DNA of 46,178 nucleotides, taken from the NCBI GenBank assembly GCA_028692415.1, contig JAQUXM010000007.1, positions 1 to 46,178 of the forward strand. Direction: 5' to 3'. Position numbers and translations under genes: made by a program. The notes beneath the pieces were generated by a model, which was given only the letters and a program-made list of their open reading frames with translations, was not told the DNA's origin and ran no database searches. This stretch comes from Syntrophomonadaceae bacterium (GTDB taxonomy: Bacteria; Bacillota; Syntrophomonadia; Syntrophomonadales; Syntrophomonadaceae). How positions within the stretch are numbered: position 1 is the first letter of the stretch; each line of letters opens with the position of its first letter. Below are positions 6,462-44,533 of the stretch, piece by piece.

Positions 6462-7658
6462 TTAGATACCGATAACGACACCGGAGCCAACGGTTCTGCC
6501 ACCTTCGCGAATCGCGAATCTCAAACCTTCTTCAATGGCGATTGGGGTAATCAGTTCGATGCCCATTTGGATATTATCGCCGGGCATGATCATTTCTACG
6601 CCTTCGGGCAGCTCAATTACACCGGTTACATCGGTGGTGCGGAAATAAAACTGTGGCCGGTATCCTCCGAAGAACGGGGTGTGTCTGCCTCCTTCTTCTT
6701 TGGTCAGTACATATACCTGCGCCATGAATTTGGTCAGGGGCTTGATGCTATTGGGCTTCGCCAGTACCATGCCTCTTTCTACTTCTTTCCGGTCAACGCC
6801 TCTTAACAGGGTTCCGATGTTATCTCCAGCCTGGGCATAGTCCAGAAGCTTTCTGAACATCTCTACGCCGGTGCATACGGTCTTCCGGGTGGCTTCTCTC
6901 ATTCCTACTATCTCGACTTCTTCGCCGACTTTAATCTGGCCTCTCTCTACTCTGCCGGTGGTTACGGTTCCTCTGCCGGTTATGGTGAATACGTCTTCGA
7001 TGGGCATCAGGAACGGCTTGTCCGTGGCTCTTTCCGGCAACGGTACAGATTCATCTACTGCATCCATCAGTTCCCATATATGACCGCACCATTCGCAGTC
7101 CCGGCTGCCGCAGCTGCATTCCAGTGCTTTTAAGGCTGATCCCATTACTACCGGAATATCATCTCCGGGGAATTCATAGAAGCTTAAGAGTTCCCGGACT
7201 TCCATTTCTACCAGTTCCAGCAGTTCGGGGTCATCCACCATGTCTATTTTGTTCATGAATACGACCATGTGATGTACGCCTACTTGTCTCGACAGCAGTA
7301 TATGCTCTCTGGTCTGCGGCATCGGTCCATCGGCTGCTGATACTACCAGAATCGATCCGTCCATCTGCGCTGCTCCGGTTATCATGTTCTTTATGTAGTC
7401 TGCATGACCCGGACAGTCTACATGGGCGTAATGTCTTTTCTCGGTTTCATATTCTACATGGGCCGTGTTTATGGTTATTCCTCTTTCTCTCTCTTCCAGT
7501 GCTTTGTCAATCTCGGCATAGGATGTCGCTTTCGCTCCTCCTACTTTAGATAACACCTGGGTGATTGCTGCGGTCAATGTGGTCTTGCCATGGTCTATAT
7601 GCCCAATGGTCCCTACGTTAAGATGAGGTTTTGTCCTCTCGAATTTTGCCTTTGCCAT
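6462..7658 (-). CDS. tuf: Elongation factor Tu, copy 1 (ORF track starts at 7670; [12 protein letters not shown] start at 7658 preferred)
   Basis: [33 protein letters not shown]; full EF-Tu domain set; str operon context downstream of fusA. Confidence 0.99.
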
Positions 7659-22170: not shown

Positions 22171-22211
22171 TACGCGGCCGGAAGCGGGAGACATCTTTTC
22201 GCTTCGTTATA
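22171..22211 (-). repeat. Structured intergenic repeat, fragment E (5' end only)
   Basis: Reverse strand ATAACGAAGCGAAAAGATGTCTCCCGCTTC, matching the 5' ends of copies B, C and D. Confidence 0.75.
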
Positions 22212-24523: not shown

Positions 24524-24565
24524 GGGTACACACCATTAAGGTAAGGGTACACACCTCCTACCGGA

Positions 24566-24639
24566 GGAATGTCCCCATCGTGTGGAATGTCCCCATCGTG
24601 TGGAATGTCCCCATGGTGTGGAATGTCCCCATGGTGTGG
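24566..24639. repeat. 18 bp tandem repeat, 4 units (ggaatgtccccatSgtgt)
   Basis: Units at 24566, 24584, 24602, 24620; two with 'atcg', two with 'atgg'. Confidence 0.95.
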
Positions 24640-24739
24640 GATTTTTGCAAATTCCCTTCATTTACCCTATTTTATCTAAATTATTACTCTGTTCAGATAA
24701 TTTCTCATCTCATCCCCACATATCTTTACCGCGTGCAAA

Positions 24740-28515: not shown

Positions 28516-29712
28516 CTAGATAGAGATAACGACACCAGAACCGACTGTTCTGCCACCTTCGCGAATCGCGAATCTTAAGCCTTCTTCAATGGCTATTGGA
28601 GTGATCAGTTCGATGCCCATTTGGATATTGTCGCCGGGCATGATCATTTCTACGCCTTCGGGCAGCTCAATTACGCCGGTTACATCGGTGGTGCGGAAGT
28701 AAAACTGCGGACGGTATCCTCCGAAGAACGGGGTATGTCGGCCTCCTTCTTCTTTGGTCAGTACATATACCTGCGCCATGAATTTGGTCAAGGGCTTGAT
28801 GCTGTTAGGTTTGGCCAACACCATTCCTCTTTCTACTTCTTTCCGGTCTACTCCTCTTAACAGGGTTCCAATGTTATCTCCAGCCTGGGCATAGTCCAAA
28901 AGCTTTCTGAACATTTCTACGCCGGTGCATACGGTCTTCCGGGTAGCTTCTCTCATCCCTACTATTTCAACTTCTTCGCCGACTTTGATCTGGCCTCTTT
29001 CTACTCTGCCAGTAGTTACGGTTCCCCTGCCGGTTATGGTGAATACGTCTTCGATGGGCATCAGGAACGGCTTGTCGGTGGCTCTTTCCGGCAGCGGTAC
29101 AGATTCATCTACTGCATCCATCAGTTCCCATATGTGACCGCACCATTCGCAGTCCCGGCTGCCGCAGCTGCATTCCAGGGCTTTTAAGGCTGATCCCATT
29201 ACCACCGGAATATCATCTCCGGGGAATTCATAGAAGCTTAAGAGTTCACGGACTTCCATTTCTACCAGTTCCAGCAGTTCGGGGTCGTCCACCATGTCGG
29301 TCTTATTCATGAATACTACCATGTGATGTACGCCTACCTGTCTGGACAGGAGTATATGCTCTCTGGTCTGCGGCATCGGTCCATCGGCTGCTGATACGAC
29401 CAGAATCGATCCGTCCATCTGGGCTGCTCCGGTTATCATGTTCTTTATGTAGTCTGCATGACCCGGGCAGTCTACATGGGCATAATGTCTCTTCTCAGTC
29501 TCATATTCTACATGGGCGGTGTTTATGGTTATTCCTCTTTCTCTCTCTTCCGGCGCTTTGTCAATCTCGGCATAGGATGTCGCTTTCGCTCCTCCTACTT
29601 TAGATAACACCTGGGTGATTGCTGCGGTCAATGTCGTCTTGCCATGGTCTATATGCCCAATGGTCCCTACGTTAAGATGAGGTTTTGTCCTCTCGAATTT
29701 TGCCTTTGCCAT
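28516..29712 (-). CDS. tuf: Elongation factor Tu, copy 2 (ORF track start 29724; MAKAKF start at 29712 preferred)
   Basis: Near-identical to copy 1 at protein level; upstream of rpmG-secE-nusG. Confidence 0.99.
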
Positions 29713-30093: not shown

Positions 30094-30224
30094 ACATGGT
30101 TGCACCCTTCGGGCACTACTGATGCGCTCATGGTTAGCTTCCTACCAGCTAACAGACCCTTAATACATTTAAGTTTTTAACATGGTTGAGTATTTTACTC
30201 AACCATGATCGCGTTTATGGTTGC
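30094..30224. repeat. 131 bp spacer repeat unit 1 (tRNA operon spacer)
   Basis: acatggttgcacccttcgggcactactgatgcgctcatggttagc...catggttgagtattttactcaaccatgatcgcgtttatggttgc; near-identical to 30343-30473. Confidence 0.95.
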
Positions 30225-30342
30225 ACCCCTTCGGGCACTTGCGATGTTCACATGGTCGGATTTTGTTTAATTTTACTAAGCAATTGACACTATATAATAA
30301 TCTTTATCATGGTCGCACCTTGCGATGCGACCATGATCACTT

Positions 30343-30466
30343 ACATGGTTGCACCCTTCGGGTACCACTGATGCGATCATGGTTAGCTTCTTACCAGCTA
30401 ACAGAACAATGATACATTTAAGTTTTTAACATGGTTGAGTATTTTACTCAACCATGATCGCGTTTA

Positions 30467-30473
<7 letters not shown>
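30343..30473. repeat. 131 bp spacer repeat unit 2, running into tRNA-fMet 3' end
   Basis: Same order of motifs as unit 1 with a few substitutions; last 7 bp are tRNA-fMet 3' end. Confidence 0.95.
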
Positions 30474-30764: not shown

Positions 30765-30787
30765 ATACTATTTACGGTAATTTAACT

Positions 30788-30923
30788 TTTTAGCAACAAA
30801 AGAAACTGCGGAGCAGTTTCAACACACCGCTACAACGAGGCAGGGCTTTGGAACCTGATATCCGTTTTGTCAACAGGATGCCAAATGATTATTGAAGCAA
30901 AAAAACCCTTTGCGCCTCGTTAT
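30788..30923 (-). repeat. Structured intergenic repeat, copy A (diverged)
   Basis: Reverse strand ATAACGAGGCGCAAAGG...CTGTTGACAAAACGG...CCCTGCCTCGTTGTAGCGGTGTGTTGAAACTGCTCCGCAGTTTCTTTTGTTGCTAAAA. Confidence 0.85.
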
Positions 30924-31570
30924 ATTGCGTTTCGGTCCTCCAGATACTTTTCCAGCTTCCTTTTTACCCTCTGCAGGGCATTATCAATCGATTTCACATG
31001 TCTCTTAAGATCAATGGCTATCTCATGGTAGGATTTGCCCTCCAGATAGGCCATAAGGACTTTCCACTCCAGTGAGCTCAATATCTCGCCAATTTTTTTC
31101 TCGATAAATATGAACTCTTCCCGGCTGATAACAATCTCTTCCGGATTCGTAATTCTAGTTGTGGATAATATATCCATGAGCGTACGTTCGGATTCTTCAT
31201 CATAAATAGGTTTGTTAAGTGATACATAGGAATTGAGCGGAATGTGTTTCTGCCGGGTGGCAGTCTTGATGGCGGTAATTATTTGCCGGGTAATACATAA
31301 TTCAGCAAAAGCACGGAATGAGGTCAACTTGTCCAACTTATAATCGCGAATTGCCTTAAAAAGACCTATCATACCTTCTTGTATGATATCCTCTTTATCA
31401 GCTCCAATGAGAAAATAAGATCTGGCTTTTGCTCTTACAAAATTTTTATATTTATCCATTAGAAATTCTATCGCAAATTGATCGCCCTGCTGGGCTAGTT
31501 CCACTATTTCTTCATCACATATTTCTAGATATGTAAGACAAATTCTTTTTACAGCGACAGAACCGGACAT
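30920..31570 (-). CDS. sigH: RNA polymerase sigma-H factor (Spo0H-like)
   Basis: FLMDKYKNFVRAKARSYFLIGADKEDIIQEGMIGLFKAIRDY...FRAFAELCITRQIITAIKTATRQKHIPLNSYVSL; rlmB-sigH-tRNA-tuf context. Confidence 0.95.
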   Translation of the reverse strand: MSGSVAVKRICLTYLEICDEEIVELAQQGDQFAIEFLMDKYKNFVRAKARSYFLIGADKEDIIQEGMIGLFKAIRDYKLDKLTSFRAFAELCITRQIITAIKTATRQKHIPLNSYVSLNKPIYDEESERTLMDILSTTRITNPEEIVISREEFIFIEKKIGEILSSLEWKVLMAYLEGKSYHEIAIDLKRHVKSIDNALQRVKRKLEKYLEDRNAI

Positions 31571-31740
31571 TCAATCGCCTCCATTAGTTATTTTAAATAA
31601 GCACAGTACACACATCTTCTTAATTATAGCCATTGGTCCATAACTAGTCAATATACCTCTGTACACCCCCGGGGGAAAGACAAAACTCAACAAACAAGCA
31701 AGTACCTGCTCCGATGAAAATACAGCGCGCTTGGGCCAGT

Positions 31741-31898
31741 ATAACGAGCTGAAAGGATGTCCACCGCTTCTTTAAGCGATCGGGTTCCTATCATCGAGTT
31801 CCGGGTTCCTATTAACAAAACCGGCGGCGGGTTCTAATTCCCTGCCTCGTTGCAGCGACGTATTAAAACTGCTCCGCAGTTTCTTCCGCTGCTTAAAT
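31741..31898 (+). repeat. Structured intergenic repeat, copy B (internal duplication of gggttccta)
   Basis: ataacgagctgaaaggatgtccaccgcttctttaagcg...cctattaacaaaaccggcggcgggttctaattccctgcctcgttgcagcg...aaactgctccgcagtttcttccgctgctta. Confidence 0.9.
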
Positions 31899-36471: not shown

Positions 36472-36705
36472 AAAATAAAGCCTTTCATCTCCATTAGAGA
36501 CGAAAGGCTCAACTTCCGCGGTCCCACTCTTTTTTAAATACTATTGATAGTATTTCTCTTCCATCTTTTAACGGTGATACCGGACATACCTATATTAATT
36601 CGGCATATCTGCTCCCAGGTGCACTTTCAGCAACTTCATACCGTAAAAAGGCTCTCAGCCGGTGACCTTTTCTCTCTGGCAGCGATCGATGCTTACTCTT
36701 CCCAT
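36472..36705 (-). promoter_or_regulatory. T-box riboswitch leader upstream of cysE-cysS, probable Cys (TGC) specifier
   Basis: Reverse strand T-box AAGAGTGGGACCGCGG; terminator AGCCTTTCGTCTCTAATGGAGATGAAAGGCTTTATTTTTT; stem I with GAGAGCC and GCTGAAAGTGCACCTGGGAG. Confidence 0.9.
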
Positions 36706-36791
36706 TCCTAGCATTTAGATATTCAATTACTAAGATTATATGCAGCAGCAGCAATTATGTCAATTGCAGGCTGCTGGTCTATCTTCCCTGT

Positions 36792-36929
36792 TTTAAGCAT
36801 CGAAAGAAACTGCGGAGCAGTTTCTTTCGCACCGCTGCAACGAGGCGGGAGATTAGAAACCGCCGCCTGTTTTGTTAATACGAACCTGGCTGCTCAAAGA
36901 AGCGGGGGACATCTTTTCGCCTCGTTATA
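36792..36929 (-). repeat. Structured intergenic repeat, copy C
   Basis: Reverse strand TTATAACGAGGCGAAAAGATGTCCCCCGCTTCTTTGAGCAGCC...ATTAACAAAACAGGCGGCGGTTTCTAATCTCCCGCCTCGTTGCAGCGGTGCGAAAGAAACTGCTCCGCAGTTTCTTTCGATGCTTAAAA. Confidence 0.92.
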
Positions 36930-44233: not shown

Positions 44234-44393
44234 AATATTCCCCCTTTCTTCATCCCCTAAAAGCCAAAGCTTATGCTACATACATAATATGTTAATCCCA
44301 GTTTTGTTACAAGGGAAAGGAAAAACACTCCTGTATCCCCTCTAGTCCCTGCGGCTTTGTTGACAAAGGATAGAAGCAAGGTCTATAATTTTT

Positions 44394-44533
44394 ATAACGA
44401 GGTGAAAAGATTTCCCCCGCTTCTTCAAGCGGGGAGGTTCCTATTAACAAAACAGGCGGCGGTTTCTAATCCCCCACCTCGTTGTAGTAGCGGTGTGTTG
44501 AAGCTGCTCCGCAGTTTCTTCCGATGCTTAAAA
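44394..44533 (+). repeat. Structured intergenic repeat, copy D
   Basis: ataacgaggtgaaaagatttcccccgcttcttcaagcggggaggttcctattaacaaaacaggcggcggtttctaatcccccacctcgttgtagtagcggtgtgttgaagctgctccgcagtttcttccgatgcttaaaa. Confidence 0.92.

Follow-up and report, generated by a model that had tools for sequence, protein, structure and literature searches.

A ~132-bp intergenic repeat of Syntrophomonadaceae located 3' of TATAA, probably a non-autonomous single-strand-DNA transposable element

The window (the whole stretch of DNA that was analysed, 46,178 nucleotides) contained four long copies and one fragment of an intergenic repeat, located as follows:

44398-44532, + strand: copy 1, mobile unit CGAGG...GCTTAAA, 135 bp (covariance model and sequence)
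44393-44397, + strand: TATAA target pentamer of copy 1, host DNA 5' of the element (sequence; empty-site rule)
44396-44404, + strand: left arm AACGAGGTG of the long-range stem of copy 1, with its partner CACCTCGTT at 44475-44483 (sequence and folding)
44500-44518, + strand: right subterminal hairpin of copy 1, GAAGCTGC-TCC-GCAGTTTC, 14 nt before the right end (sequence and folding)
36792-36924, - strand: copy 2, mobile unit, with its TATAA target at 36925-36929 (sequence and covariance model)
30788-30919, - strand: copy 3, mobile unit, diverged, with its TATAA target at 30920-30924 (covariance model)
31745-31897, + strand: copy 4, mobile unit with about 21 bp extra, with its TATAA target at 31740-31744 (covariance model)
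22180-22211, - strand: left-end fragment of 32 nt, model positions 1 to 32 only, adjoining recD2 (covariance model)

Full-length covariance-model matches (114 to 160 bits) spanned 44393-44533 (+), 36791-36929 (-), 30787-30924 (-) and 31740-31898 (+); as three of the four long copies were in the seed alignment of the model, their bit scores were partly obtained by construction. The original prediction had placed four long copies and a fragment at these positions, and three of the long copies were recovered within 1 to 2 bases. The ordered architecture that it had quoted was correct, with about 21 bp extra in the copy at 31740-31898, and the copies were in both orientations and lacked a transposase, as it had stated: no coding sequence of TnpA size fits in about 132 bp, and none was adjacent. 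Copy 3 was directly behind sigH (30920-31570, -), whose stop codon was within the TATAA target of that copy, and copy 4 was between rlmB and sigH, in the opposite orientation to both genes. A T-box leader (36493-36718, -) adjoined copy 2; the gene downstream of this leader encodes a serine O-acetyltransferase (cysE). Elsewhere in the window, an 18-bp tandem repeat (GGAATGTCCCCATCGTGT, about 5 units, 24548-24655) was found downstream of a topoisomerase III gene, and the tRNA cluster contained a 131-bp direct duplication (30094-30473; 94% identical). Two 402-aa ORFs had a 300-nt stretch in common (6463-6762 and 28517-28816; 92% identity), and are probably a duplicated tuf gene, as judged from length and context.

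The consensus of the copies aligned in one orientation was TATAACGAGGCGAAAAGATGTCCCCCGCTTCTTTAAGCGGTCGGGTTCCTATTAACAAAACAGGCGGCGGGTTCTAATCCCCCGCCTCGTTGCAGCGGTGTGTTGAAACTGCTCCGCAGTTTCTTCCGATGCTTAAA. RNAalifold on a MAFFT alignment gave a poor consensus, and the structure underlying the covariance model was written by hand instead. The host draft genome (G000; 3.0 Mb, 245 contigs) contained at least 150 covariance-model matches and at least 40 full-length BLAST matches at E ≤ 1e-31, and chance was excluded because of these numbers. Copies by covariance model were at least 150 in G001 (one genus with G000), 144 in G021 (a complete genome of 2.94 Mb; 2,936,195 bases, one contig), 129 in G034, and 1 to 10 in each of six low-copy genomes tested. 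With BLAST, the distribution was patchy within Syntrophomonadaceae (15 of 54 genomes), and the 24 genomes tested from outside it (9 from the order, 15 from the phylum) gave no match. The hosts were fatty-acid-degrading relatives of Syntrophomonas. In named genomes, the core pattern was almost confined to Syntrophomonas and Syntrophomonadaceae records; the pattern matches in L042 and L044 spanned 24 nt only and were probably due to chance. No match was found in the viral contigs, plasmids and phages searched. A match in Rfam or the literature had been named beforehand as evidence against a new element; no Rfam family exceeded the gathering threshold, and no description was found in the open-access papers searched. 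This is apparently a large, undescribed mobile repeat family in model syntrophic bacteria.

The mobile unit (CGAGG...GCTTAAA, about 132 bp) was defined from empty sites in sister genomes. Flank profiles had sharp borders, with TATAAC on the left, CTTAAA on the right and unconserved DNA beyond. In 13 filled/empty pairs the joint was at the TATAA-like pentamer. In the clearest pair, with an exact joint, G034 read gcggcctt-TATAACG...GCTTAAA-tgcgagcg and G021 read gcggccttTATAAtgcgagcg; in longer form, the right flank in G034 was tgcgagcgagcc and the empty site in G021 was gcggccttTATAAtgcgagcgagcc. Other pairs had TATAA followed by aggag (L189 and L075), TATTA (L251 and L183), TTTAA (L177 and L068) and TATAG (L159 and L271). 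The pentamer was kept on the left of the element and was not repeated on its right. Because of these comparisons, the TATAA-like pentamer is interpreted as host DNA that predated insertion or was left by precise excision; both processes give the observed empty sites, which do not distinguish between them. Of the 195 unique copies, 158 had TATAA and 179 (about 92%) had NATAA as the left pentamer, and 135 had TTAAA at the right end. Target duplications of 2 to 12 nt were absent across 89 copies beyond a weak signal at 2 to 3 nt, and the ends (CGAGG and CTTAAA) were not inverted repeats of each other. Targeting of promoters (-10 boxes) was rejected, with the base after the right end being rich in A and not T (109 A and 38 T of 195), and TATAA sites being strand-balanced in tandem spacers (207:193).

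One site, where a 2-oxoacid oxidoreductase-like gene ends (identified by reading its translation only), was filled at the same base in three genera (L218, L143 and L153), and at the matching point of L141 TATAA ran straight into the right flank. An old insertion that the three have in common, horizontal transfer or repeated targeting would account for the filled site. The element gave this gene a C-terminal tail (YNEVK...) in L218, L143 and L153.

The left border opened a long-range stem of about 9 bp enclosing an apical domain, and the right hairpin stopped about 14 nt short of the right end, preceded 5' by GYAG in most copies. Folded as single-stranded DNA, the element formed strong hairpins (z = -5.4), and the bottom strand folded as well as the top. 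Core-deleted versions of roughly 48 to 82 bp (G063, G031 and G021) had lost the apical domain and kept both ends. A variant with an extra block of about 50 bp before the right end was present in G022, G035 and G067; in this subfamily (L139, L134, L135, L148 and L260), TTATACTTTTGAGCCTGCGAACCCAAATTGTGGTGCTCGCAGAGTGCTTCC preceded GATGCTTAAA, in tandem in one copy. A T-arm-like GGGTTCTAATCCC was present, but the Rfam tRNA model gave no match, and a tRNA-like domain was discarded.

Placement and orientation were analysed in one genome (G021) with the report's own gene calls. Intergenic copies were 132 of 137 under this ORF model. Copy density was 1.39 per kb of spacer in divergent, 1.03 in tandem and 0.54 in convergent spacers, in stretches that were chosen around elements; the raw excess of divergent over convergent positions (45:7) shrank to 1.39 vs. 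0.54 per kb after allowing for spacer length. The location at gene ends that had been proposed was thus partly upheld: the copy started at or inside the end of the gene in 24 of 67 cases with a same-strand upstream gene, but density was highest in divergent spacers. Two equally large terms accounted for orientation: replication (p = 6e-4, gene direction being included in the model) and flanking genes (p = 0.011). With GC skew used to locate the origin and terminus, the replication term was towards the leading-strand direction, i.e., with the top strand as the lagging-strand template, and in symmetric gene contexts 34 of 52 copies had the replication-favoured orientation. In tandem spacers of the G021 set (L154-L227), 60 copies had the same and 20 the opposite orientation to the genes, and this bias persisted after the replication term.

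Single-strand transposition predicts an orientation bias towards the lagging-strand template (PMC6006769). The enzymes of IS200/IS605 elements work on this template; the features they recognise are subterminal hairpins and a tetranucleotide target that flanks the left end (PMC6006769). The element is probably a non-autonomous single-strand-DNA transposable element (HUH-type, IS200/IS605-like), a bacterial counterpart of the haloarchaeal PATEs. A putative transposase supplied in trans would fold the top strand during its single-stranded phase as the lagging-strand template. It would cut on the 3' side of TATAA and behind TTAAA, and the strand thus released would be joined to the 3' side of another TATAA. 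Insertions within genes would be removed by selection, and the remaining copies would drift neutrally between genes. The candidate transposase may be a RAYT/TnpAREP, a TnpA of the IS200 type, or an enzyme that has since been lost. Counting against this interpretation, no transposase was linked to the element, the bottom strand folded equally, mismatches decayed without strand preference, and in the shortest versions no space was left on the 5' side of a left hairpin for a guide of the IS608 kind.

Palindrome-associated transposable elements (PATEs) of Haloquadratum walsbyi include core-deleted short versions (PMC3119063). The element resembled PATEs in lacking terminal inverted repeats and target duplication, in its near-terminal palindromes, in a 4-5-bp target kept at the 5' end after insertion, in being too short for a transposase, in its total of more than 100 copies and in its core-deleted short versions. 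It differed in its bacterial host, in a left palindrome that starts at the border itself, and in that no parental IS605-type transposon with matching ends was found in the loci examined. With IS200/IS605 (IS608 and ISDra2) it shared insertion 3' of a short fixed target, the absence of duplication, subterminal hairpins and an orientation bias consistent with the lagging-strand template, but it had no tnpA or tnpB and no recognisable guide 5' of the left hairpin; as it encodes no Y1 HUH TnpA, it is not an autonomous member. The element is best read as a new family of the PATE/IS200/IS605-derived, non-autonomous kind. The original prediction therefore stands for a dispersed, structured, ORF-less repeat and not for an unprecedented repeat class, since the family belongs with PATE/REP-like non-autonomous elements. 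It provides a case of PATE-type biology in bacteria whose target, borders and empty sites are known to the base, and allows one to test, in a named organism, what mobilises PATE- and CGTC-REP-like elements that lack a flanking transposase.

Within the HUH interpretation, mobilisation of a REP-type element by a resident RAYT (TnpAREP) rather than by an IS200/IS605 TnpA is a tentative possibility. Y1 (PF01797) proteins of RAYT size were present in G001, G021, G034 and G073, and GTAG-REPs allow the GYAG that was found 5' of the right compound hairpin (PMC3733652). Similarly to REPs and REPINs with RAYTs (PMC3733652), the element was a high-copy, intergenic palindromic repeat, and several of its host genomes contained RAYTs. 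However, no copy was near the RAYT loci inspected, those examined for repeats had unrelated palindromes of their own, and adjacency gave no RAYT partner. The draft host genome (G000, 92% complete) had no Y1, Y2 or TnpB match above the cut-off despite at least 150 copies. The element had 132 bp (down to 48), two unlike structured halves and a single right hairpin, vs. 20-40-bp REPs or inverted REP pairs, was not mainly downstream of genes, and had GYAG rather than strict GTAG; with no inspected RAYT adjoining, it was not assigned to GTAG-REPs or REPINs. The palindromes around the RAYT-like genes of L228, L231, L235, L236 and L237 (G021, G034 and G001), e.g., GACAAACGAAACGTCCCCCTGTC, CAAACAAAGAACCGTCCCTTTGTTTG and TTAAGTGCCTGGCACC, are apparently separate REP-like families unrelated to the element. 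An IS200-sized TnpA was found in G035 only, with ends unrelated to the element, and TnpB in G001 only. No autonomous full-length version, with the left and right ends around a gene, was found in the 1.66 Mb of loci examined, and no IS605-type transposon with the ends of the element was found in these loci.

A non-autonomous element of another duplication-free class (IS110/IS1111 bridge-RNA type, IS607, or IS91/Helitron-type Y2) is unlikely. The absence of duplication and the fixed short target also suit some of these classes, and the right hairpin about 14 nt from the 3' end resembles that of rolling-circle elements. G034 had one Y2 protein and G073 a fragment of one, but Y2 was absent from G000, G001 and G021, and the target is retained 5' of the element as in IS200/IS605. 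Movement that involves no known Y1 or Y2 HUH transposase, but for instance an unrecognised enzyme or a route coupled to replication or repair, is regarded as improbable; if true, a bacterial family of more than 100 copies would undergo precise, duplication-free, TATAA-directed insertion by machinery other than these transposases. ERIC, BOX and classical MITEs are also short, high-copy, intergenic and structured, but the element differed from them in having neither terminal inverted repeats nor a duplication of TA or another target, and the lack of both set it apart from classical MITEs.

A structured regulatory RNA, or an mRNA leader or terminator under selection at many genes, is very unlikely. 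Low folding energy (z -2 to -4) and co-orientation with tandem flanking genes in G021 (60:20) are in its favour, as are the matching outer-arm changes in 11 copies with right stems of at least 12 bp, in which the outer arms varied between copies and matched within each copy (GGAA/TTCC, GAAA/TTTC, GGGA/TCCC, GGCA/TGCC and GTGT/ACAC). These changes fit selection for the hairpin or quasi-palindrome correction. Mismatches in the long stem were symmetric (52 G-T vs. 49 A-C, with one column, by which two subfamilies differ, excluded) and without strand preference, as in neutral decay, and individual copies are therefore not maintained as RNA. The conserved RNA-like structure that had been proposed was thus not borne out, with A-C mismatches as frequent as G-T and defining features that are transpositional. 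Orthologous sites in close relatives lacked the element, copies were in both orientations beside varied genes, no Rfam family matched, and a U-tract was absent in either orientation, by which a terminator function was rejected. The element accounts for conserved spacers of about 140 bp otherwise open to annotation as regulatory RNAs.

Descent of the copies from a once-functional spacer by old segmental duplication or recombination, with no transposition, is favoured by the existence of a few tandem or clustered copies, but is refuted by the base-exact empty sites, alongside the sharp borders and unrelated flanks, and can be practically dismissed. A single recent segmental duplication, named at the outset as the other outcome against the repeat, did not hold either with at least 150 host copies. 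Nearest neighbours within a genome had a median identity of 0.89-0.90 and a maximum of 0.977, and because of this the main burst was not recent. Insertions differed between S. wolfei subspecies, with flanks mostly 90-97% identical. In L192 (position 2629, +), the element was followed directly by CGAGGTAAAATAT; this precise joint of right end and left end (GATGCTTAAA joined to CGAGG, without TATAA) was seen once, as would result from insertion of a second copy at the TTAAA of the first, or from a circle.
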